From a virus: a stretch of 64,000 nt of DNA. Positions 1 to 42,529 of the stretch are shown here, one piece after another. Where the stretch lies: IMG/VR virus record IMGVR_UViG_3300043219_000566, positions 152,502 through 216,501 of that record; one strand, 5' to 3'. Within the stretch, counting starts at the first letter, position 1. Every line of letters begins with the position of its first letter. Made by a program: the position numbers and the translations under genes. The notes beneath the pieces were generated by a model, which saw nothing but the letters and a program-made list of their open reading frames with translations, did not search any database and was not told the origin of the DNA.

Positions 1-797
1 TTGGTATAGCGCTCGCCCAGCGTTTCCTGAGTGACTTCGGGGTCCAGCTGCATCTTCGCAAACGTTTCCTGCAGATCCCTCACCTTGTTGACGGGATCGT
101 CGGGCGAACGCTCGCCGTCCCCCAGCGCCGCCCGCCGCTGGGTGAATTTGGCCCAGGCTTTATCGAGATGCCGGACGTTGTCCTGCAGGGAATTGCTAGC
201 CAGTAGATCGCGGCCCCAGGCCTTCGATAGCTGCTCGTTGGTCACACCCAACGAACGCAGCAACGTGTAAAGCGGAAATTTCGACTGCCCAACCCGTACA
301 TGAAACACGCCGCTCTCCGCGTCCATAAAGACCCGGAAGCCCGGCCCGGAGCCAGGCATGATATTGAAGTGGCTCTCCAGCTCACCAGTCTCTTTCTTGC
401 GCGTGTAAACGCCGGGCTTGAGGCGCATCTGGTTGGCGAGCGTGTACTCGTTACCTCTGTAGATGAACGTGCCGCGGTCGGAGACGTGCGGAACCATCGC
501 AACCCGGCTTCGCCGCTCATCGATCACCTGCCCAGTCGCCTTGTCGATCATGCGCCAGGTGCCAGACAGCGAGCGGTGCATCGTCTTTCCGCCGATGATC
601 GCGCGCTTCTGCCGCTCCAGCCCGGCGGGCTCAGGCTGATCGTAATCGACATCGCCCAGCTCCACGCGGTACTGCGTGTTCTCGATCGGATAGTGATCCT
701 GAGATGATTGACGTACGTTAGCGTAGACGCGCTGGCGCAAGGCGCTCACATCGTCGAAAGCCCGAGTCGTTGGTTCCTTGGTTCCAAGCACATCCAC
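1..797 (-). CDS. RNA polymerase beta-subunit-like protein, N-terminal part (cut by window edge)
   Basis: Open reading frame running off the left edge; I translated it by hand. A stretch reading GTFIYRGNEYTLANQMRLKP, followed by GVYTRKKETGELESHFNI and, later, KFPLYTLLRSLGVTNEQL, lines up with the lobe region of bacterial RpoB (GTFVINGTERVIVSQ, SPGVFF, KLPATIILRALNYTTEQI). So it probably belongs to the multisubunit RNA polymerase beta family, used by some large phages for their own transcription. The start is uncertain: GTG at 797 follows AGAGGTG by 11 bases, and GTG at 791 and 749 are in the same frame. The catalytic part would lie outside the window. It follows a virion-type gene, so it may be packaged or late. 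Confidence is moderate because only about 265 residues are visible. Confidence 0.65.
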   Translation of the reverse strand, partial: MDVLGTKEPTTRAFDDVSALRQRVYANVRQSSQDHYPIENTQYRVELGDVDYDQPEPAGLERQKRAIIGGKTMHRSLSGTWRMIDKATGQVIDERRSRVAMVPHVSDRGTFIYRGNEYTLANQMRLKPGVYTRKKETGELESHFNIMPGSGPGFRVFMDAESGVFHVRVGQSKFPLYTLLRSLGVTNEQLSKAWGRDLLASNSLQDNVRHLDKAWAKFTQRRAALGDGERSPDDPVNKVRDLQETFAKMQLDPEVTQETLGERYT

Positions 798-2011: not shown

Positions 2012-2470
2012 TTACCTCCGGCGAAGAATACCGGGCTCAGCCTGCGAGTACTGTCGCTGGCTCATGGTGTCGTAGGTAAACACCTCGACCCACTCTAACA
2101 AGATCGTCCAGTTGTCATTGACAAACTGCCGATCGACCGCCGTGATAATAGCACTGCCGCGTTGTGCCATCGAGTAAACCAAAGACGCCACCATCTCGTA
2201 CCGCTTCTTGTCCTCAGCATTTCCGATATTGAACAACTCGCAACGGATACGACCGGCCGTCTGCGGTTGCAAGTGCTCCGGATCATCCTTCCGCAGGTAA
2301 CGAACACCGCGTGCTCGATGCGGTACACCGTCGAGCCCTTGAAAGGTCTGGTACCCATTGTCGTTCTCGCCACTCAGCGAGGAAATTACGCTCGCCAGCG
2401 GATCGCCCGGGTTAACCGAAGCAACCGGCTGTGAGTGGTGACCACTACCCTGTTCTCCGTTCTCGTTCAC
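2012..2470 (-). CDS. hypothetical protein, 152 aa
   Basis: Not recognised. Soluble, with a polar N-terminus and a middle part with regular helix/strand alternation (GRIRCELFNIGN, AIITAVDRQFVNDNWTILL). Its first 26 bases overlap the end of the upstream gene, typical of translational coupling in this operon. It stops five bases before the next gene. Its setting in the portal-to-polymerase block makes a virion or assembly role likely, but nothing in the sequence proves this. Confidence 0.7.
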   Translation of the reverse strand: MNENGEQGSGHHSQPVASVNPGDPLASVISSLSGENDNGYQTFQGLDGVPHRARGVRYLRKDDPEHLQPQTAGRIRCELFNIGNAEDKKRYEMVASLVYSMAQRGSAIITAVDRQFVNDNWTILLEWVEVFTYDTMSQRQYSQAEPGILRRR

Positions 2471-2765
2471 GTCGTGTACGCTCCCTGACCTCTTGAGCCA
2501 GTTGTCGGTACTGAGCCGCCAACTCCTGCGTCTTTAGCTCGCTCACATCGAGGTCGTCGGCCCGCGAAGCATGTCGGGCACCCATGCCCACAAGCGCGCC
2601 GCCAGCCAACGGTAAGCCCAGCGCTAGCGCCAAGCCGCCCTTTCCGAGTGAGCCAAGCAGCGAGTTGGCTACCTTCTCCACCGCTACTTCGATGTCGCCG
2701 GGAGTGAGCCCTATTTCCGCCAGCTTGGTCAAAAATCCGATTTTGAACTGCTCTGCGTTCCGCAC
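2445..2765 (-). CDS. small protein with one hydrophobic segment, 106 aa
   Basis: Not recognised. A predicted amphipathic N-terminal part (residues 1-35) precedes a Gly/Ala/Leu hydrophobic segment (about 36-60) long enough for one membrane span, then a strongly charged Arg/Glu-rich tail. The start is GTG, supported by GGAGC seven bases upstream. A perfect small hairpin (2784-2800) lies just above this SD. The layout resembles small phage membrane or tail-completion proteins; function unknown. Confidence 0.7.
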   Translation of the reverse strand: MRNAEQFKIGFLTKLAEIGLTPGDIEVAVEKVANSLLGSLGKGGLALALGLPLAGGALVGMGARHASRADDLDVSELKTQELAAQYRQLAQEVRERTRRERERRTG

Positions 2766-2874: not shown

Positions 2875-3279
2875 CTACGGACCAGCCGACGAGCTTTCCT
2901 CAGCAGGCGACGCAGCAGCCGACGAGCTTTCCTCAGCAGGCGACGCAGCAGCCGAGGAGCTTTCCTCAGCAGGCGACGCAGCAGCCGAGGAGCTTTCCTC
3001 AGCAGGCGACGCAGCAGCCGAGGAGCTTTCCTCGTCCGGCGGCACCACGGCGATCGGAGGAAGCCGAGACTCAAACTTCGGCTTCACGCCGCTAGGACCG
3101 CCGCCACGTCCGCCGTAGGTCTCGTGCTGGGCCAAATCGTCCAGCGGAATATCCACCCCCGCACCCGGCCGTCCGCCACGGCGCGTATCCGGCAGAATCT
3201 GCCCGATCGGCGTAGCTTCCTGCTGCTGCCCGGTGCGGTCGCTCACTCGCGGCTTAACATGTTCGTCAGAACTACTCAT
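2875..3279 (-). CDS. hypothetical protein with C-terminal Ser/Ala/Glu repeats, 134 aa
   Basis: Not recognised. The N-terminal 80 residues are polar and rich in Gly, Arg and Pro, probably disordered. The C-terminus is four full copies plus a part copy of an 11-residue unit, EESSSAAASPA, ending at TAG. The repeats are acidic and low-complexity, like flexible linkers. The repeat number probably varies by slippage. It sits in the virion block, directly downstream of the 2H phosphoesterase-GNAT gene. Confidence 0.7.
   Translation of the reverse strand: MSSSDEHVKPRVSDRTGQQQEATPIGQILPDTRRGGRPGAGVDIPLDDLAQHETYGGRGGGPSGVKPKFESRLPPIAVVPPDEESSSAAASPAEESSSAAASPAEESSSAAASPAEESSSAAASPAEESSSAGP
2885..3033 (-). 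repeat. 33-bp tandem repeat, about 4.5 copies, inside a CDS
   Basis: Four consecutive 33-base units (2885-2917, 2918-2950, 2951-2983, 2984-3016) and a part unit to 3033, differing at only one position (GAC versus GAG). The unit length is a multiple of three, so copy changes keep the reading frame. It encodes the repeated EESSSAAASPA motif. Confidence 0.9.
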
Positions 3280-3293
3280 TTTGCTTACCTCAC

Positions 3294-5051
3294 TTAGCGA
3301 AAGTGTTTGTTCGCGCGCTCAGACTCCATGCGCTTCAACCACGCGCAGTGACCATCCGACCAGTCTTTGTTGTGCATAGGAATGCGCACAGCGAAATCCG
3401 GGTCCATGGCTTGCTCTGTTACCGCGCGCATGGCGCGCAAGTATAGCTGGCCAGGCTCCGACGCGGTTTTCTTCAACTCGTTACCGCTACCCGTCGGTTT
3501 GTAACCCTGCCGCCCGTAAAAACCCGTCAGCTGCTCGTTGTTTAGCGGACGGTCACTAAAGGCGTCGACCTTCAGGCACAACGATTTACCTTTGTGCTCA
3601 CCCTCGGCCACGGCTAGCAGATACTTGGCTAGCCCCTGCCGACGATGAGGCTTGCGTACTTGCAAGCTGCCAACAGTGAGCTTGCCGTTACCGCCCCGCA
3701 TAACTCGTACCGCGCCAGCCAACTTGCCGTCGTCGGTATCAACGTAGTAGCTCTTGAGCGACGGGCGCTCCGAGCGCCGCAACTTGTACCCGTCGGGAGT
3801 GGCCACAGATCGTTTGGTCATGAAGCTCTTGAGCGCTGAGTAAATCAGCGCCGAGCCGATATTCGTGTTCTTCAACCAGCGCGGAGCACCTAGCAGCTTG
3901 GAAACGGCCCAAGCACCCCCGGCCGCCGGGACCGCGTGGACCACGACCTTGGGCAACGCCTTTATCAAAGCTCCGGCGCTGGCTAACCCAGTTCGTCCAA
4001 CACCTTGTTCCTGTCCAGCTTGCGCGACAAGCTGCTTCATCAGCACCCGGTGGCTACCGGGGATCGCCGGGTTCGTAGCGATCTCGTCCATGGCTTGCGC
4101 CACAGGAAACGTCGGGTTCCAAAGCGCCTCGCTGTAGACCATCGGGTCCGCCGCGCCTTCCTTGATCTCCTCGGGCGCTCTGGTCGCGCGTGGGCGGCCC
4201 AACGAAGCTCGCAAGAAGCGCATCATCTCCTGGGGATTCTGCGGCGCACCGCCGGGGTGGAAGAACTTCCCGTAGACTCCCTTGCGCGACAAACCGAGCA
4301 CGGCACCGGGGGTAAGCCCGGCACCGAGCCCAGCAAGAGTGAAGAATCGACGCGCCGCTCGACGGTCTAAGCCAAGCAGACGCGAGAGCAGGGGGGCCGC
4401 CAGATAGCGGCCAGCCAGAGCACCACCAGCCCCGCCAGCAGCCAACCAAGCTGGTACGTTAGTCTTCCAGCTAGGCTTGCCGTACACGGATGGATCATCT
4501 CCGGCAGTTTTCAACGCGCGCAACGAAATCGAAGTCTTCCGCCCGCCCTTCTGGGCAAACAACACCTCGTTGAACGTGTGGGTTCTTCCCTCCAGATCAT
4601 TGCGGTCTGCGTACCGTTGACCGCGCCCCTTCTTGACCCGGGCTACAGTCACGTGCGGCTGGTACTGAGGATGATTCTCCGTGTGCGGCAACAGCCGCTT
4701 GAGCCGCGCGTTGATCCGCCGCAGATCCGGGCTGAAGACCTTCACCACAACCACATCGTCGCCGTCGGTGTGCTTCGAGGCCGGGAAGCACTCGGTGCGC
4801 CCGAAGCGCACGTGGATCGACGGCTCGGCAGTCAGAATAGCGCGCACCGGCTCAGCATTCGCGGTGTGCAGCCCGTATTTCAACGTGATGTGATGACTCG
4901 TCCGTACAGCAGAAACCAGATCCTCAGACCGGATGTCCTGCGCGATTCGCCGTACCGCGGCCGACAACTCCTCCGGCAAGTTGACTTGAGTCGAAGCGAA
5001 CTCGTAAGCCGACTTTTCGATCGCGTCGAGATAGCACAGGAACGAACGCAT
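3294..5051 (-). CDS. 2H phosphoesterase - GNAT acetyltransferase fusion, 585 aa
   Basis: Residues about 40-185 carry two HxT motifs: HIT (H54, T56) in HHITLKYGLH and HVT (H133, T135) in PHVTVARVKKG. Their spacing is that of 2H phosphoesterases (LigT/cyclic phosphodiesterase group), which hydrolyse 2',3'-cyclic or 2'-5'/3'-5' oligonucleotide bonds. The middle (about 195-430) is Gly/Ala-rich with hydrophobic stretches. The C-terminus (about 445-560) looks like a GNAT acetyltransferase: LQVRKPHRRQGLAKYLL is the acetyl-CoA loop (R/Q-x-x-G-x-G/A-like) and FYGRQGYKPTG the last strand. The fusion sits among virion genes, so it may be injected with the DNA. The phage anti-CBASS enzyme Acb1 is also a 2H enzyme; an anti-defence role here is only inferred. 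Confidence 0.7.
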   Translation of the reverse strand: MRSFLCYLDAIEKSAYEFASTQVNLPEELSAAVRRIAQDIRSEDLVSAVRTSHHITLKYGLHTANAEPVRAILTAEPSIHVRFGRTECFPASKHTDGDDVVVVKVFSPDLRRINARLKRLLPHTENHPQYQPHVTVARVKKGRGQRYADRNDLEGRTHTFNEVLFAQKGGRKTSISLRALKTAGDDPSVYGKPSWKTNVPAWLAAGGAGGALAGRYLAAPLLSRLLGLDRRAARRFFTLAGLGAGLTPGAVLGLSRKGVYGKFFHPGGAPQNPQEMMRFLRASLGRPRATRAPEEIKEGAADPMVYSEALWNPTFPVAQAMDEIATNPAIPGSHRVLMKQLVAQAGQEQGVGRTGLASAGALIKALPKVVVHAVPAAGGAWAVSKLLGAPRWLKNTNIGSALIYSALKSFMTKRSVATPDGYKLRRSERPSLKSYYVDTDDGKLAGAVRVMRGGNGKLTVGSLQVRKPHRRQGLAKYLLAVAEGEHKGKSLCLKVDAFSDRPLNNEQLTGFYGRQGYKPTGSGNELKKTASEPGQLYLRAMRAVTEQAMDPDFAVRIPMHNKDWSDGHCAWLKRMESERANKHFR

Positions 5052-5606
5052 CTACCTCGGTCTTCCGAAGACCGCCTTGAAGTAGTTAGGAATTCGAGGG
5101 CGCGCGTACTGCGCCGCGTTGTACCCCATCGGCAACATGCCGGGTCCGACAGCGTTCATGTACTGCTGCGCTTGCGGACCTATCCCGGCTATTCTCCGAC
5201 TTCTAGGATCGCCAACCGGAAAGCCGTGAATATTCCTCTCGCCTTGATTCGCGTCCGGCGGCTGACCACCAAACAGTTTTCCGAGTCCCGCCGCGCCCGC
5301 CGCGAAACCAACTGTGGACTTCGGGTACTTGTAGAGCCAGTACGCCGAGCTAAGCGGATTGGGAATTACCCCGGCTACACTGCCACCGAATGCAGCCAAG
5401 TCGGCTTTGCCGCCTCGGAGCATCTTCGGTAGCAGCGGCTCAGGCGTAGCCTTCCCGAACGTCGTCGCGCGCTGCGCCCAGTTCTTAGCAACCGGCGCAG
5501 CCTTTTGCGCTTTAGAAGCCAGCCATGGCAATGCTTTGCTAGCAAAGCGGCCTGCAGACTTGTCCATGGCCAACCGCTCACCAAGTTGGTAAGCGTAGCT
5601 CGGCAT
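5052..5606 (-). CDS. hypothetical virion-type protein, 184 aa
   Basis: Not recognised. Basic and alanine-rich N-terminus, a central part rich in Gly/Ala/Leu (about residues 95-125) that could touch a membrane, and a C-terminus rich in Pro, Gly, Tyr and Asn. It ends with TAG directly before the ATG of the 2H-GNAT gene (TAGATG), so the two are probably translated together. Composition is like that of the neighbouring genes of the block. Confidence 0.7.
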   Translation of the reverse strand: MPSYAYQLGERLAMDKSAGRFASKALPWLASKAQKAAPVAKNWAQRATTFGKATPEPLLPKMLRGGKADLAAFGGSVAGVIPNPLSSAYWLYKYPKSTVGFAAGAAGLGKLFGGQPPDANQGERNIHGFPVGDPRSRRIAGIGPQAQQYMNAVGPGMLPMGYNAAQYARPRIPNYFKAVFGRPR

Positions 5607-6314: not shown

Positions 6315-7268
6315 TCAAAATCGTTCTCCGCGCTGATGGCGCGCCCACAAATCCGGGAACATGCCCGGCATGTTAGCCTGCAACACATCCGGCCTGCCAC
6401 GATAATCGCGCAGCCACCGATTAAACGAATTTACGCGTTGTTTCGCCGGGTCGGTTTCCGCCGCTTCGCGATTGGCCCGCAGTGTCTTCGCTACGTTACC
6501 GCTAATTTCAGGAATATCGTGCGTTACTGCTTTCGCCGTCGCAAGAGGCGCATAAATCATTCGCTGCTCAAACGACGGACCCGGCAACTCCGCTCCAGCC
6601 ATCGCTAATCCGGCTCGCGCTTTCCAACCTATACCAGGAACGAAATGAAGCGCACCCTGGCCAGCTGCGCCTACTCCTTCACCAACTCGGCGTGACCATG
6701 ACTTTTGCCGCTCTGTGTCGTTGTAAGCATCTACCGCACCATGCAAATCGCCTTTCCATACTTTCTGAAAAAACGGCGACCAGAAAGGTTCATCACCTGA
6801 GTCTTGCGCGCTTTGAGCAGGCTGCTCCTCGCGCATGATCTTCAACCCGCGGCCCAGCTGGCTGCCCAGCGTGTTCCGCGGCATGGACTGCAAACCTTGA
6901 TGTACGATATGGTTAAACGCCATCGCTCCGGCGTTGGGCACCGGCTTCCCCAGATCTGAGTAGTTGAAGCCTCCAGACTTGATCACTGACGGCGGCGTCG
7001 AACGACGTTTCTTCTTCAGCAACATTTTCCAATGCCGCTGCCGATCAGCTTCCGAGACCGACGCACGCTTGCGAACCGACCCGACCAACTGCACGTAGAA
7101 TTCAGCCACGTCGCTGCGCTTGGGCATCGGCTTGCGCCCGGAACGCCAGGGCATGATCTTGTTATGCACCCGGGAATCGATGTCGGCATGCGCCTTGGCC
7201 GATTCACTGGCCGGAACCGTCGCCGAGACGCTGACAGCCGACTTTACCAATTCAAGCAGCGTGAGCAT
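6315..7268 (-). CDS. hypothetical protein downstream of portal, 317 aa
   Basis: Not recognised. The N-terminal 100 residues are strongly basic (KKKRRST), then a mixed helical part, then a weakly hydrophobic Gly/Ala-rich region (about 200-235), as in the other proteins of this block. It directly follows the portal gene, where scaffold, protease or head-completion genes often sit, but no protease motif is visible. No clear SD precedes the ATG. The 52-base gap before it holds the GTAGCGCGCTAC palindrome and a CTGCCG-AG-CGGCAG inverted repeat. Confidence 0.7.
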   Translation of the reverse strand: MLTLLELVKSAVSVSATVPASESAKAHADIDSRVHNKIMPWRSGRKPMPKRSDVAEFYVQLVGSVRKRASVSEADRQRHWKMLLKKKRRSTPPSVIKSGGFNYSDLGKPVPNAGAMAFNHIVHQGLQSMPRNTLGSQLGRGLKIMREEQPAQSAQDSGDEPFWSPFFQKVWKGDLHGAVDAYNDTERQKSWSRRVGEGVGAAGQGALHFVPGIGWKARAGLAMAGAELPGPSFEQRMIYAPLATAKAVTHDIPEISGNVAKTLRANREAAETDPAKQRVNSFNRWLRDYRGRPDVLQANMPGMFPDLWARHQRGERF

Positions 7269-7311: not shown

Positions 7312-7323
7312 GTAGCGCGCTAC
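7312..7323. repeat. GTAGCGCGCTAC palindrome, copy 1 (over portal stop)
   Basis: Perfect 12-bp palindrome. On the minus strand bases 2-4 are the TAG stop codon of the portal gene. It lies 44 bases upstream of the next start codon. One of seven exact copies in the window. Confidence 0.85.
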
Positions 7324-9134
7324 ATCCCGCCCGGTGCCCCGCCCGGTGCCCCACCCGCCATCTGGGCGATGACCTGGTCCTGACCAACGCTCCGGGCTTG
7401 GCTGCGCATGTTCTGGAGCTTCTGCTTCACCACGGCATGCAGAGTCTCGTCGGTCTGCCGCAACTGGTTGAGCTGGCGTCGTCGCTCACCTTCCGGCATC
7501 GCCAGCAGCTGCTGAGCCATCTGCTCAGCCTGATCGAGCACATCTCCCGGCTGCATCGCCCCTCCGCCACCGCCGCCGCCCGGCATCCCCGGCGCACCAC
7601 CACCAGCAGCCATCGGTGGCATCCCCTGACGGGCCGCGCTGGTTTCGTTCAACCGTCGCTGCATATCCTGCGCCTGCATCTCTTCCTTCTCGATCTTCTG
7701 CTGCTCCTCGCGCAACATGCGTTGCTCGTCGAAGATGCGCCGGATCTCGTCGCGCACGTCGATCCCAAACGGAGCCAACGCCGTCTGATCCGAGATCTTG
7801 TTCGCAGCCGACAACTGCAACCGGACCAACCGCGCTTCCATGTCGTCAGCGCGAGTGACCGGAGTCATACGCCCACGCGCTCGCTCCCAGTTGAAAACCA
7901 TCGAGAGATTTTCGAGCAGCCAGTTTATCCAGTTGTTGAACCCGGCAACCAGGTGCGGCCACGTTGCCTCGAACAGCCGCAAAGCCGGAGGCATGGCCTT
8001 TAGCTCCAACGAGCCCTTGTAGAGATCTGCCGGGACGCCGCACGAATTAAGCAGCTCGTCCAGCGCCACCGTTATCAGCTCGTGCGGTGCAAGCTGATTA
8101 GCCTCGCCGCCCAGCGCCTGATACTCAATTGGAAAAGGCAAACTGTGCATCGCGAGTGGATCACGCCGATGCTCGGCAATCATGCCGCGCACCCGCGACG
8201 AGAAATTGCCCAAGTTAGCGTTCAGCAGCGGATCGACTTTGCCCTGCGGACCGCCCGGACGTCCGGGCGTAACTACGCGCCAGGGCACGATGTAGTCCAT
8301 GGCCAGCGCCTCGTTGTAGCGCTTGAGCACCTGGATGTAGAACCCCTGCTTGAAATTCGACAAGGCCCGTGGGATACCCCAGCCGCGGTTGTGCAGCCCC
8401 GCCAGCGTGTCCTCCTTGAGATGGAACACGATGCCGTCGTTGAACCCGAACAACTGATCCTTCTGGATCGCTTCAATGTATTCCCAGGGGGTGTACTGCA
8501 AATAGAACGGCACGCCACGCTGGATCTGACTTTTGAAATCTTGAGGAATACGCCACAAGTAACGGTGGTCGTGGCTAAGCGGATGGAACAAAATCTCCAT
8601 CTGGTGCGGGCTCCAGCGGATGATCCGCAACCGGTCCTGCTCCATCGAGCGGCGGTCCACCACATCGAACTCGCCGTTGCATTTACACTTCGGGCACTGC
8701 CCGTAGAACTTAAAGCCCCGGAACGTATAGAGCATACGCTCGATCGGACGATCCAACTTGCAGCTCTTGCAACGCAGATAGCGTCGGAACGGAACGAAAA
8801 TGCTCGTAAACGAGTTACCGTAGAACAGAAAATCGAGCCCCACCATCCGCAGTTGCGCAGCGACTCGCAGCGTATCGTCCAGAAATTCGTTGTACTGCTT
8901 CTTGATCTCGTCGGCGACGTCCAGGATCTCGACCTTGGTCAGGAAATACGCACACACGCGCTCCAGCGCCATCCGGTACGTACCGTTGTGCGCCCAGAAC
9001 AACTCACACCAGCGGAGCATGCTCCGCAAGTTGCGAGGCGTGTACATCCCGGAGTAGTCGAGGAAAGGGTCGGGAAACCACTGAACCCCGCCGCTGGACC
9101 CGGACGATGAGTTAGGAACAATGCTATCTGGCAT
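7320..9134 (-). CDS. phage portal protein with zinc ribbon, 604 aa
   Basis: Portal proteins form the dodecameric ring through which DNA enters and leaves the head. Support: length, the FYGNSF motif (residues about 105-110) common in portals, the long run of alternating strands and helices up to residue 400 (including FHLKEDTLAGLHNRGWG), and a Gln/Glu-rich helical C-terminus ending in Gly/Pro/Met low complexity. An unusual insertion carries four cysteines (C122, C125, C147, C150) in CxxC pairs, forming a probable zinc ribbon. The SD is weak (GGAT). Its TAG stop lies inside a 12-base palindrome. The product call rests on pattern recognition without alignment. Confidence 0.75.
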   Translation of the reverse strand: MPDSIVPNSSSGSSGGVQWFPDPFLDYSGMYTPRNLRSMLRWCELFWAHNGTYRMALERVCAYFLTKVEILDVADEIKKQYNEFLDDTLRVAAQLRMVGLDFLFYGNSFTSIFVPFRRYLRCKSCKLDRPIERMLYTFRGFKFYGQCPKCKCNGEFDVVDRRSMEQDRLRIIRWSPHQMEILFHPLSHDHRYLWRIPQDFKSQIQRGVPFYLQYTPWEYIEAIQKDQLFGFNDGIVFHLKEDTLAGLHNRGWGIPRALSNFKQGFYIQVLKRYNEALAMDYIVPWRVVTPGRPGGPQGKVDPLLNANLGNFSSRVRGMIAEHRRDPLAMHSLPFPIEYQALGGEANQLAPHELITVALDELLNSCGVPADLYKGSLELKAMPPALRLFEATWPHLVAGFNNWINWLLENLSMVFNWERARGRMTPVTRADDMEARLVRLQLSAANKISDQTALAPFGIDVRDEIRRIFDEQRMLREEQQKIEKEEMQAQDMQRRLNETSAARQGMPPMAAGGGAPGMPGGGGGGGAMQPGDVLDQAEQMAQQLLAMPEGERRRQLNQLRQTDETLHAVVKQKLQNMRSQARSVGQDQVIAQMAGGAPGGAPGGM

Positions 9135-16714: not shown

Positions 16715-19700
16715 CTAACCACACGCGCCTTCGCCACAGACAGAGCACTTCTGACAACCTTCGGCCCATACCAGCTCTCCCAGACAATCGAGTGTCTGAC
16801 AAGGCACCCGATACGTGCCGGTCATCGCCATAGCGCTATTCACGCGATCCAAAAAAGCCTGAGAGCGCTCGACCCCGTGTCCGTTGCCGCCAGAGACCTG
16901 CGCCGCAGCTACAACAGAAGAAGCGACAGGCTCGGGCCGCTTGTTCGGACCAGGGCGCACATCGGGCAGCTGGGTCAGAAAACCGTCGTCGTCGCGGAAA
17001 GCCTGGGTCTTAGCGAAATAGCTCAACAGCGCCATAGCCAGCTCGTTGGGTGGGCTAGTAGCCTTGTTGCTGCTGCCGTTACGAGAGGGGTGGTTGCCCA
17101 GCACGTGACTACGCATCTGCTCGATAACCAATTCCAGGCTACCGTCCAAGCGCAAGATCAAACTAGCTAAGCGCCCAAAGACCTCGATCATCGGGTGTAC
17201 GCCGTCGCCGGACCGCCCCAGGTTGAAGAACAGCTCTCGCTCGCGATAGCGCCCATCCGGGGTCAGCTCCAGCGAGATCTGCATGTGCAGATTACCGTAA
17301 GCGCTGTGGTAACGCGTGCGTGTCGCGTGCATGAACTCCGGGATCTCGACCGGAACACGGAAGTGCGGAACATCCGGTACGACCAGGACCTCGTCTTGCT
17401 CGCTGGATTTACTCAACGCCATCGGCTGATTCGCTCGACAGCCGTTTCGGTACACCGTCACGCCCTTGCAACGACTCGCGTAAGCCAGAATGTACGCCTC
17501 GCGCACGCTGCTCTCAGTAGCTTCGTGCGGCATGTTGATCGTCTTGCTGATCGAACTCGTCGTATGTCGCTGAAACGCGGCCTGCATCCGCACGTGCCAC
17601 TCCGGGCTCACATCGCGCGCCGTACGGAAAATCTCCTTCATCGGAGCGGGTACCTTCTTGGCATCCTGCAACGTGCCGTTGTCGAACATGTGCTGCTGTA
17701 GCTCCGGGCTATCGAACTGCTGTTGCTGCGCCAACTCAGCGAAATCGGGATGGCACTCCATCATCGTCTCGCCCCCGAGTATCTGGCGCTGGAACACGAA
17801 GCTGAACAACGGCTCGATGCCGCAGCTAGCGTTGGCGATGATGCTGATCGTGCCGGTCGGGGCCACGCTGGTCACGCAGGCATTACGCAGCGGGCGATCG
17901 AGACGCGCAGCCCAACGACTTTGCTCGTAGTTCTCGAACGCACCCCGTTCCTCTGCTAGACCCTGGCTAGCGCTAATCGCATTGTCGTTGACGAACTTCA
18001 TAAAGCGTTCGCCCCACCGCAAGCCCCCCTCCGAGTCGTAACGCACCCCCAGCCGAATCAACGCATCGGCAAAGCCCATGACGCCCAAGCCGATTTTGCG
18101 ATTGGTGTGGCAAATCCGCTCGATGTTCTCAGTGGGGTAGCGATTCACCGATACCACGTTGTCAAGAAGCCGCGTAGAAGTGCAGATGTCATCCTGCAGC
18201 CGGTCCCAGTCCACCAGATCATCACGCTCGTCCGCGCTAAGACTATCCGGGTTACAGGCATCGGGATGCTCGATGTAAAACGGACGCACGTAGCGCCCTA
18301 AGTTGAGCGAGCCCAAGTTACAGGACTCGTTCGGCATCAGCGGCTGTTCCCCGCAGTTACACGACACCACGCCCGACCACAAGCCCGCAGCAGAATCGCC
18401 GCGGTATTCCGGGTCAACGATCACGTAAGTATGCACATCATCGACGGTCCCGTTGTACACGGCAGCACGCCCAGCTGATCGAATCGCAACCACCTTGTGG
18501 TTGTCTCCGTAATAGCGCCTTACACCATCAGCAATCTTGGCATGCACCTCGGCCGCAGCAGTCTTCCAGCCGTGGCGTCCAAACCCGCCTGCCTCGCGCT
18601 CCGGGTAATGACGGCTATTATGTTCTTCCGGCGTCATAACCCGCAGGTTCTCGGGGCGATTGTTGTCCGGGTTTCTATCGATATGGTCGGTTACAAGGCC
18701 CTCGGGTATTTCTACGCCGAAGCAATCCAGCGCCATGCGATGGACCCACTGATGCGCGCAGCGATTAGCCACCCACGCGTGAGCACGCTGGTGGCCGTCG
18801 CGATGCCGCGAGACTGCGTAAGCCCGAACTGACTGCCCGATCCGCAGGTCTTGCGCCGTGATCTTATTGCCACGAAACGTCCGAAAGTTGTGGCCCGCCG
18901 TACAGCGAACTTTGAGCCCGCTGTCGAACTCGACCTCGATGATGTCTGCGGCGTGCTCTGTTCGCCGAATATCACGCATCATGCGGATTACAGGCAGCTT
19001 AGTATCGGAGTCCCACGCATGAACCAACGTGCTCCCGACGCCGGATTCGACCAGCTCCTCAAATGAACGCGGGCCGTCAATAGTCAAGATCTGCGTATCG
19101 CCAGTTACGCATGGATTAGTAGCTTGGATCAACCCCGCCGCAGGCGTAGCTTCCGACTCCCGGATACGGTCGATGAAGAACAACCCCGGTTCACCGGTCT
19201 GCCAGGCATTCTTGACGATCAAGTCCATCACATCGCCAACCGTCAGATATTGATCCTGCTCTCCAGCGACAATTGCCTGGCCCGTCAGCGTCAGATCCTG
19301 AATGCCGTAGCAAATATCCATCTCCCGCGGCTGCCCGTCGCTGGCAACTCCCGCCTGCACCGCTTTACGGCACCGCTCAACGATCTCTTTGGGTATAAGC
19401 CAGCCGTCCCCCTCGCGATCCGGCCAAGTCACGATGAAAGGCGCTCCCGGACGCTTGGTAACGAGTTCCATGAACTCGTCGTCGACCTTCACGCTGATGT
19501 TGTAGTTCTCGAACTGGCGCAAGTCCTGCTTAGCGAACAGGAACTTGATGATATCGGGATGGTTGACCCGCATCATCGCCATGTTGGCTCCCCGGCGGAA
19601 ACTGCCCTGCTGGATCGCCGACGTAGCCTCGCTGAACACGCGCCAGAACGCAATCGGGCCGCTGGACTGCCCGCCGCTCGAACTGACGAACGCCCCACAG

Positions 19701-20107
19701 GGGCGTAATTCGTCGAAAGCAAAACCGGTGCCACCCCCGGCCTTCTGGATGATGGCCGTGTCCTTGATCGCCTGAAAAATGCCACGAGTATCGTCTGGCA
19801 CCGGCAGCACGAAGCACGCGCTCAACAACCCCATCCGTCTGCCGCTGTTCATCAGCGTTGGACTATTGGGCATGAAGCGGCCGGAGCGCATCAGTTCGTA
19901 GAACCGCCCGCTCCACTCGTCACGCTGCGCCTCGTCCTCGCATCCAGCGACGTGGTCAGCCACGCGCTTGAACATCTCGTCGGGCGTTTCCGTGATCTCC
20001 CGTTCGTTCCGTATGAGATAGCGATTACGCAGAACTCGAACTGCGTTTTCAGTGAGAACTGGAACTTCGGGAACAATAGCCGACGCGGTACGTGACAATG
20101 TTGACAC
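16715..20107 (-). CDS. nrdJ: adenosylcobalamin-dependent ribonucleotide reductase (class II) with intein
   Basis: Reduces ribonucleotides to deoxyribonucleotides with B12 as radical source. Evidence: [20 protein letters not shown] (first active-site Cys), the [13 protein letters not shown] loop, the [21 protein letters not shown] active-site segment, [20 protein letters not shown] and a Cys-rich C-terminus ([13 protein letters not shown]) that recycles the active-site disulfide. A 252-residue intein interrupts NP/CGE, so the spliced enzyme would be about 878 aa. Start: the frame extends to a GTG at 20173, but AAGGAG lies six bases before GTG at 20107, which I prefer. With ThyX and dTMP kinase nearby it supplies dNTPs for replication. 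No small subunit is needed in class II, and none is seen. Confidence 0.93.
   Translation of the reverse strand: [1130 protein letters not shown]
18356..19111 (-). mobile_element. intein with HNH homing endonuclease inside NrdJ, 252 aa
   Basis: In-frame insertion between N-P and C-G-E of the reductase active-site motif. The N-terminal splice block is [13 protein letters not shown] (Cys1), block B is [14 protein letters not shown] with the expected His, and the C-terminal end is VVSCN followed by extein Cys. The residue before the last Asn is Cys rather than the usual His. The centre carries an HNH-type endonuclease segment ([20 protein letters not shown]). Such inteins spread by cutting intein-free alleles and often sit at the most conserved site of replication enzymes, as here. 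Confidence 0.9.
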
Positions 20108-20141
20108 AACCCACTCCTTCGACGCTATGGGTTCGACGCTA

Positions 20142-20423
20142 TTAGCGACCGTACATAAGGTGTACGGCGTCACTCTTGCTGGCAGTCATTAGGTAGTAGC
20201 AAACTGAGATAAACCGACCGATCCCCGGTAACTCTGTACTGGCATGCACTGTTGCGGGCTGAAAAACGATATGCTCGGCGCGCTCCATCCACCGCTGCAT
20301 CTGGGGCACAACTGGCTCGGTGAGCATGACGTCGGTCTGCTCGTCGATCAACGACCCCTGCACCGGTTTACGCACTCTGCATTCGTTGAATTCCTGAAGA
20401 CGCAACCTGGGGAAAACAAACAT
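20142..20423 (-). CDS. hypothetical protein upstream of nrdJ, 93 aa
   Basis: Not recognised. ATG follows GGAGCGGAGCAA, a strong start signal. The N-terminus is basic, the middle reads FQPATVHASTELPGIGRF. It ends 34 bases before the preferred nrdJ start, so it probably leads the nrdJ transcript. A possible promoter lies about 90 bases upstream of it. Confidence 0.6.
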   Translation of the reverse strand: MFVFPRLRLQEFNECRVRKPVQGSLIDEQTDVMLTEPVVPQMQRWMERAEHIVFQPATVHASTELPGIGRFISVCYYLMTASKSDAVHLMYGR

Positions 20424-40749: not shown

Positions 40750-41336
40750 TTCCGTACCACCGTAATGCCCCAGTCATCGTCGCGCTCCTTGAAGAACTGG
40801 TTCACGTCGAACAGCTCGCGATCGATAGCCGGGAGCAATGCAACCGGACCGGGATGAAAATTCGTGTCATGCAGCACAATAACGCCGAACGGCGAGACAA
40901 ACTCGGCGTAGCGCCAATCGCGCACTACCTGATCGACCGAGTGCCAACCGTCGATGTGTAAGAAGTCGATCACCCGCTCACCGCATAGCTCCTCGACCTT
41001 GGCCATCACGCGCTCTAGGTCCGAGGAGTCGCAGCGCAACGTATGCACGTTGGCGCGCTCGATGTAGCACTTGTCCTGCGTGTCCACGCCCAGGTAAAGC
41101 ACGTCGGCGGGCAATTCCACCAGCAGCACCTGCGTACCGGATGCACCGTCCCCGTGATTGGATACGCCAATTTCCAAAACCAAACGCCTCTGTCCCGCTA
41201 GCGAACGAAATGCTTCGCGCAACACGCTCTGATCGCGCGTAGAGTACACTCTGGAAATGCGCTTCTTAGCCGCAGCAAAATTGGGCGGACGATCCTTGTC
41301 ACCGTTGCTCGGAACATAGGTTAATCCGTAACTCAT
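40713..41336 (-). CDS. class I SAM-dependent methyltransferase (Methyltransf_24 type)
   Basis: RLVLEIGVSNHGDGASGTQ is the SAM-binding loop (E-x-G), LYLGVDTQDKC the second strand acidic residue, IDFLHIDGWHSVDQVVRDW and VIVLHDTNFHPGP the typical (D/I)G-x-H-x-x-x-V-x-x-D and HD motifs of Methyltransf_24, often seen in glycan or antibiotic pathways. 207 aa. ATG after GGGGAG. Overlaps the RuBisCO-like gene stop. Confidence 0.75.
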   Translation of the reverse strand: MSYGLTYVPSNGDKDRPPNFAAAKKRISRVYSTRDQSVLREAFRSLAGQRRLVLEIGVSNHGDGASGTQVLLVELPADVLYLGVDTQDKCYIERANVHTLRCDSSDLERVMAKVEELCGERVIDFLHIDGWHSVDQVVRDWRYAEFVSPFGVIVLHDTNFHPGPVALLPAIDRELFDVNQFFKERDDDWGITVVRKWIKDPSAIAEM

Positions 41337-42529
41337 TCAGTTACTCCCCATAGTCGAATAGCCTGACGGTACTCAGCTCCGTGCTCACCGTCGATCGCCT
41401 GGCGCATCGCCCGCGCGCCTGCCAAGGTTCCGCCGGGATGACCGTGAATACTGCCGCCACAATTCGCCAGCCAGTCGTTACCGAAGCGCTTGACAATCGC
41501 TTGCACCAGCCCCGGGTGCAACCCGCAGCTGAGCGCAGGCAGCACGTCGGCTTGCCGCAGGACGGCCAGCGTCGCGCTCAGCTCATCCTCCGGATCAGAC
41601 AGATACCCGCCCCACATCCCGGCATGAATGAAGTCGACGCCCATCAGGCCCGCCAGCTTGCAAATCACGTTCCAAGAGATGTACGCGCGGTCGGTCGGCG
41701 TGGTCATGATGCGATCGCCGCTTTTCTGAAAGAACAACGCCAACGGCAGATCCAGGCGGCGCACGGCCCGATAGGCTCCCAAGCCACTCCAGATATTGAG
41801 ATGCACAGCATTGCCGCCCAGCTCGTGCACCAACGCTACGCGATCCAGCAGTTCCGGTCCGTCGGCGGTCACACAGACCGCGTAGATCACGTGCTTGTCG
41901 TGCAAGTAGTCCATGATCAGCGGCACCCGCTCCTTCAGCGAGCAGCACGCCGGGTTCGACATGATCTCGTCTTCCTTGATGAAATTGACCCCGCCCGCGA
42001 CCAGCTCCTTGACCACAGCTAGTAACGTGGACGGGCTAATACCCACCTTGGGCTTGATAATCCCACCCAGCAGCGGTTTATCGTGGCAACGGGTAGCCTG
42101 ACGGATGCCGCCGAGCCCGTAGCGCGGCGGCAAGAAGCCCGCGCAAGCTGACTTCGGGATCTCCAGCCCGAGCAATCCGCAGCCCTCGATGAGATCGATG
42201 TCGAGCTGACCACCCATCAACTGACACAGCAATTGAGATATGCCGTCGTTCGGCAAATCGATATTAGCCAGTGGAAACGCGATCTTCACTTCGCCCTTCC
42301 GGCGGCGCGCCAGATCGTCCGGGTCGTGCGGGATCAGACAACCGTGCTTGCGGAACAGCTCGGGGCTCTCCCACGCGCTGCGCATATTCGGGTTGCCAAT
42401 ACTCTGGCCCACCGCCAATGCCCAAGCTGCCTCCTTCAGCGTAGTACGCGAGCGCAAGTTGTAACGCGCAACGATGTACTCCTCGGGGTCGTACTGGCTC
42501 GTGAAAACAATCGACTCAACTGACGACAT
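41333..42529 (-). CDS. RuBisCO-like protein (form IV type), 398 aa
   Basis: RuBisCO large-subunit fold. LLGGIIKPKVGIS holds both Lys of the KPK motif (K159, K161); GGVNFIKEDEIMSNPACC matches GGLDFTKDDENVNSQPF, giving the carbamylated Lys (K185) and metal residues Asp187/Glu188; LANCGGSIHGHPGG ends with the GG phosphate motif. But loop 6, IHAGMWGGYLSD, lacks the Lys of true RuBisCO (GKLEGE), and His294/Arg295 are not found at FFQKSGDR. It therefore should not fix CO2; RLPs act as enolases/isomerases or decarboxylases on sugar-type substrates. 398 aa is slightly short. Neighbours are cupin, methyltransferase, nucleotidyltransferase and sugar kinase, which suggest a role in making an unusual sugar. 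ATG after GGGAGACAAGC. Confidence 0.9.
   Translation of the reverse strand: MSSVESIVFTSQYDPEEYIVARYNLRSRTTLKEAAWALAVGQSIGNPNMRSAWESPELFRKHGCLIPHDPDDLARRRKGEVKIAFPLANIDLPNDGISQLLCQLMGGQLDIDLIEGCGLLGLEIPKSACAGFLPPRYGLGGIRQATRCHDKPLLGGIIKPKVGISPSTLLAVVKELVAGGVNFIKEDEIMSNPACCSLKERVPLIMDYLHDKHVIYAVCVTADGPELLDRVALVHELGGNAVHLNIWSGLGAYRAVRRLDLPLALFFQKSGDRIMTTPTDRAYISWNVICKLAGLMGVDFIHAGMWGGYLSDPEDELSATLAVLRQADVLPALSCGLHPGLVQAIVKRFGNDWLANCGGSIHGHPGGTLAGARAMRQAIDGEHGAEYRQAIRLWGVTE

Follow-up and report, generated by a model that had tools for sequence, protein, structure and literature searches.

A compact 2H phosphoesterase-GNAT protein from a phage head block, read as a candidate injected polyvalent protein

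The closest described relatives of the protein examined here are the polyvalent proteins of phages and of conjugative elements, multi-enzyme polypeptides encoded among late genes (Iyer et al. 2017, PMC5512222). Both 2H phosphoesterase and GNAT acetyltransferase domains are listed among their parts, the 2H clade described below occurs there in portal-MuF fusions, and such 2H domains were predicted to be RNases or degraders of defence nucleotides. The same work covers DarA and DdrB of phage P1, which resemble our reading of this protein in being head-packaged accessory proteins from processed precursors but carry different domains, DdrB being thought to process itself. A second comparison is the anti-CBASS nuclease Acb1 of phages T4, FBB1 and BCSR5, which shares a 2H fold and an HxT/HxT catalytic tetrad with this protein and uses W74 and W147 for substrate stacking and as a lid (PMC9117128).

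The stretch of DNA analyzed (the window, 64 kb) is the terminal part of a 216.5-kb virus record, here called G000, that is distantly related to Salmonella phage Arash. P0001 is a 585-aa open reading frame at 3294..5051, on the minus strand like all window features cited below, laid out as a 2H domain, a middle region, and a GNAT domain. Its ATG start follows directly on the TAG with which the upstream gene stops. The internal proteins of phage T4 are likewise accessory proteins that travel in the head and derive from processed precursors; their domains differ from those of P0001. A polyvalent protein is marked by two or more different enzymatic domains of the conflict type and by a place among virion structural genes. 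P0001, with 2H and GNAT and a location between the portal and RNA polymerase genes, is a compact variant of that class, in which this pair of domains is already published. It differs from the described examples in being short (585 aa, two enzymes), in its conserved helical middle, and in the bracketing of its domains by a motif of head-core proteins, which at domain edges has no description in the part of PMC5512222 that was searched. The new element appears to be this motif, common to capsid, scaffold, protease, and cargo. From sequence and gene context, we consider it probable, though well short of secure, that P0001 is a compact polyvalent head protein that is packaged, cut by the maturation protease, and injected, acting on substrates of the kinds proposed below.

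Domains and catalytic residues of P0001

Pfam, AlphaFold2, and Foldseek all place a 2H phosphoesterase domain at aa 17 to 178 (4518..5003). The Pfam family 2_5_RNA_ligase2 matches aa 27 to 142 (3.5e-9, 37.3 bits versus a cut-off of 27), and an AlphaFold2 model of the whole protein, built with 44 family sequences, has a pLDDT of 93 to 98 across most of aa 21 to 180. Foldseek matches of this part include drCPDase, Acb1, Usb1, and LigT. Two HxT motifs lie within the 2H fold, as expected for the superfamily: HIT at aa 54 to 56 (4884..4892) and HVT at aa 133 to 135 (4647..4655), with H54, T56, H133, and T135 present in 44/44 relatives. Together they supply an Acb1-type HxT/HxT tetrad. Just past the second motif, residue 138 (4638-4640) is Arg in P0001 and Tyr in 42/44 relatives, a replacement that may change the pocket. 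Assignment as the RNA 2',3'-cyclic phosphodiesterase ThpR/LigT (TIGR02258) was rejected at 23.7 bits, against an equivalog cut-off of 65.7.

The GNAT domain spans aa 421 to 528 (3468..3791) by Pfam, single-sequence AlphaFold2, and Foldseek. Acetyltransf_7 (1.6e-7) and Acetyltransf_1 (4.3e-7) both match aa 427 to 519 above their cut-offs, and RRQGLA at aa 470 to 475 (3627..3644), read directly in the sequence, fits the acetyl-CoA motif Q/R-x-x-G-x-G/A, so that family score and motif agree on a GNAT acetyltransferase. In the whole-protein model a GNAT-like beta-alpha unit appears at aa ~421 to 528 with moderate confidence; modeled in isolation, from the single sequence only, the domain shows b4-a-b-a-b-b without helices 1 and 2 (pLDDT 72.6). 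The best Foldseek match of this model in the PDB was PanZ (1.6e-5), with streptothricin acetyltransferases also among the matches. A single-sequence IMG/VR scan, tblastn, and a GNAT pair profile returned no GNAT relatives.

Because the Pfam matches exceed their cut-offs, both domains are beyond chance, which confirms the fusion of a 2H domain with two HxT motifs to a GNAT domain proposed in the sequence-only reading; the structure prediction called for there returned the 2H fold and, less firmly, a GNAT-like unit. That reading also proposed a hydrophobic middle. The region at aa 196 to 414 (3810..4466), delimited by conservation in the orthologue described below and by AlphaFold2 helices of medium to low confidence, is Ala/Gly-rich, helical, and mildly hydrophobic. 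Hydropathy over 19 residues peaks at only 1.54, so this region is not clearly transmembrane, and a transmembrane anchor was dropped on that value. Between it and the 2H domain, aa ~181 to 200 form a disordered, low-confidence linker.

Gene context, relatives, and the 2H clade

P0001 lies between the portal gene, upstream, and a fused beta-beta' RNA polymerase gene, downstream. This is the arrangement of Arash, and the earlier placement of P0001 in a virion block was right. The portal (7320..9134) has distant kin in the portals of Arash and of Vibrio phages D181, D148, and D69 (tblastn, 2e-61 to Arash and 3e-69 to D181). Between portal and P0001 are a 317-aa head-block protein with LVKSA at aa 7 (6315..7268) and a 184-aa head-block protein with MDKSA near its N-terminus (5052..5606). 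Downstream, a 134-aa reading frame (2875-3279) ends at its C-terminus in five EESSSAAASPA repeats and is followed by a 106-aa protein (2445..2765). The N-terminal part of the 1,465-aa polymerase occupies 1..797 (Pfam RNA_pol_Rpb2_6, 3.8e-44, plus Rpb1 domains). The full polymerase (G000:148901-153298) comprises beta and most beta' domains, the C-terminal part of beta' being a separate 617-aa gene (144921-146774). It is 33% identical to Arash gp206, which the Arash study reports as the most abundant protein of the virion, and an IMG/VR scan recovered at least 307 relatives. Elsewhere in the window are a ribonucleotide reductase whose HNH-containing insertion is probably an intein (16715-20173) and, among sugar and sulfotransferase-like genes, a phage RuBisCO-like protein (41333-42529; Pfam RuBisCO_large, 4.5e-35) whose best NCBIfam match, rubisco_III (1.2e-50), is far under that model's cut-off.

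Single-sequence IMG/VR scans with P0001 and with the portal gave no match, and no relative of the 2H-middle protein was found in GTDB genomes. One IMG/VR relative, L103, encodes a syntenic 434-aa orthologue that is 58% identical to P0001 across 2H and middle, with a 302-aa gene at the place of the 184-aa protein. The orthologue stops where the GNAT domain would start. The GNAT domain is therefore a variable add-on. The next L103 gene (L103:7310-8995), also in the head block, encodes a LigD 3'-phosphoesterase that also has a ligase-like region, and by our own reading the tail of this protein matches the stand-alone 106-aa protein of G000. LigD-like genes also occur in L051, L071, L078, L094, and L096, and short relatives of the tail in others. 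From the two states of the LigD tail, fused and stand-alone, and the presence or absence of the GNAT domain, conserved head proteins appear to gain and lose enzyme domains. Neither a 2H nor a GNAT domain was found in the flanks of 80 RNA polymerase-family loci; the absence of 2H counts against reading P0001 as head cargo.

A profile made from four phage 2H domains matched 215 relatives. They occur as solo proteins, as parts of proteins of 2,000 to 3,200 aa, and as fusions to portal/MuF or to a head protease. For example, L108 reads as a portal-2H-MuF fusion, and in L184 a single reading frame (L184:5119-8226), flanked by portal and capsid genes, looks like an HK97-type prohead protease fused with a 2H domain from this clade. 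A close parallel to P0001 is ORF321 of Tunturiibacter phage Tunturi_5 (1,362 aa), a SprT-2H-ART-GNAT-ART protein in which the second ART domain is called from multiple matched stretches of the ART model. Like P0001, it combines 2H and GNAT in one polypeptide of the virion block, with KxA sites at linkers; unlike P0001, it adds SprT and two ART domains and belongs to a different phage lineage, in which no relative of the RNA polymerase was detectable. In the PDB, the clade profile best matched BCSR5 Acb1 (3.1e-9), followed by FBB1 Acb1 (4.5e-5) and then by plant and bacterial CPDases.

These matches bear on what the 2H unit cuts. We favor a defence nucleotide, and the main rival is nucleic acid end healing, in which defence nucleases would break host tRNA or other RNA and the 2H unit, with a ligase, would open the 2',3'-cyclic phosphates on the broken molecules. 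The fold match to drCPDase, Usb1, and LigT equals that to Acb1, and the LigD-type gene of L103 is in the same operon as the orthologue, with LigD-like genes recurring in relatives. LigD enzymes, however, act on DNA ends, and no ligase adjoins P0001 in G000. The polyvalent 2H class is also not tied to RNA ligases (PMC5512222), and the best PDB match of the profile is Acb1. On this balance end healing is unlikely, if still a credible competitor to cleavage of a defence nucleotide.

A KxA-type motif in head-core proteins

Within the head block (G000 128 to 160 kb, RNA polymerase excluded), the pattern [LIFVMY]xKxA occurs 53 times, whereas shuffling the proteins gives an expectation of 12.8 (z 10.9, about 4-fold). 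Counts elsewhere in G000 were 18 versus 10.4 in the tail block and 42 versus 38.6 in nonvirion reading frames, and neither the reversed pattern nor an arginine version was enriched in the head block. Because the limits of the head block were set after the motif had been noticed, independent phages matter. In Arash, the core proteins gp220, gp223, and gp225 and the protease gp222 carry 9, 8, 6, and 6 copies, versus 0.5 to 0.9 expected, and Vibrio phage D181 shows the same enrichment. Across 80 relatives the motif occurs 1,257 times versus 668 expected, the reversed pattern 644 versus 658. Every major capsid protein checked has the motif close to its N-terminus, at aa 28 in G000, 25 in Arash, 25 in D181, and 17 in Tunturi_5, and in G000, Arash, and Tunturi_5 alike the protease matches phrog_18299, a head maturation protease family. 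No description of a KxA phage maturation motif was found in the literature searched, which was covered in part.

P0001 has K[ST]A at three places, aa 13 before the 2H domain, aa 181 after it, and aa 528 after the GNAT domain (P=0.013 by composition, for a KxA pattern that is short). When sites were scored with position weight matrices built from other head proteins of G000 and of Arash, IEKSA at aa 11 to 15 (5007..5021) was the best match in P0001 to the G000 matrix (P=0.002 in shuffles), and with the Arash matrix LKKTA at aa 526 to 530 (3462..3476) ranked first (P=0.017). The third candidate maturation-protease site, ALKTA at aa 179 to 183 (4503..4517) between the 2H domain and the middle, is weak alone by matrix score and lies at the low-confidence linker. 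The L103 orthologue retains KxA at the first two of these sites in different pentapeptides, IDKLA near the N-terminus and LAKAA at the junction of 2H and middle. In Tunturi_5 ORF321, KxA sites flank the 2H domain and adjoin the ART and GNAT domains, and 5/7 K[STAQV]A sites fall outside the approximate domain limits (58% of the length), a placement that is suggestive and not significant alone. Two features of that phage count against cleavage: most of the motif's hydrophobic part is gone, and two KxA sites lie within domains.

The motif could instead be a peptide that binds scaffold or capsid and so loads cargo, with no cut being made. A tag of this kind would also be densest in scaffold-like core proteins and the protease and at N-termini, as the motif is. 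The sites of the motif, close to the major capsid protein N-terminus and flanking folded domains, are, however, typical of maturation cuts, and many copies in scaffold fit degradation. Loading by docking is accordingly an improbable account, though one to be taken seriously, and a cleavage signal is the reading followed below.

Predicted route into the host and possible substrates

The motif bounds enzyme domains and recurs in head-core proteins, which suggests that P0001 is packaged in the head, undergoes trimming inside it, and enters the host together with the DNA. In the proposed sequence of events, P0001 would enter the prohead core as an injected multi-enzyme protein, and the head maturation protease would recognize the [LIFVMY]xKxA-type candidate sites at aa 13, 181, and 528. 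The 2H unit would thereby come apart from the middle and the GNAT end be released, and ejection of the DNA and virion RNA polymerase would carry the fragments along. In the host, the bonds opened by the 2H unit would be cyclic or 2'-5'/2',3'-cyclic phosphodiesters in nucleotides or at RNA ends, with defence signal nucleotides the likeliest substrate. The GNAT domain may acetylate an amine of some host molecule, probably a protein.

Cleavage of signal nucleotides or RNA ends by the 2H domain is plausible, and one form of this would be an anti-CBASS nuclease of the Acb1 family proper. The clade profile matches to BCSR5 and FBB1 Acb1 point that way, as does Arash gp143 (L020:1466-1918, minus strand), annotated as an RNA ligase, which in this distant relative is a true Acb1 (57.8 bits, over the cut-off) and was found by others in virions with 14 unique peptides. 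This suggests that Arash particles carry gp143 as an anti-CBASS enzyme; the Arash study warns that carry-over may account for some of the enzymes detected. P0001 itself was rejected as a family member, scoring 18.6 bits against the Acb1 model cut-off of 27. It is also a fusion and, because no Trp was found in aa 1 to 190, has no counterpart of W74 or of the lid residue W147. PADLOC gave no match. Membership in the Acb1 family proper is thus decidedly doubtful. Since Acb1 is the best PDB match and yet the cut-off and the tryptophans fail, we favor cleavage of a defence nucleotide by a 2H domain that probably does not use a bona fide Acb1 pocket.

That P0001 is a nonvirion protein made late in infection and sitting by chance among late genes is very unlikely, for although position alone does not prove packaging, the head-block synteny is kept, the motif brackets its domains, and the clade is fused elsewhere to portal and head protease. 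The injection proposed in the sequence-only reading is well backed by context, namely the position between portal and RNA polymerase, the synteny, the kinship with polyvalent proteins, and the motifs at domain edges, and stands as a prediction. Taken as a whole, that reading held in part and had largely been anticipated in 2017; the absence of the GNAT domain from L103, the polyvalent 2H clade, and the recurring motif lay outside it.

Once injected, P0001 would help to disarm or repair the host cell. More broadly, chances seem evenly balanced that a large phage clade marked by a fused virion RNA polymerase, together with one or more further jumbo phages, uses injected multi-enzyme polyproteins that the head maturation protease cuts in the prohead at a shared KxA-type signal, one that would also mature the capsid and let cargo domains be gained and lost. 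Polyvalent proteins have been defined by domain architecture. A motif at domain edges that is common to capsid, scaffold, and protease offers a testable answer to how the enzymes within one packaged protein come free, and it may serve as a sequence signature with which to list injected effectors of this phage group that have no known function.
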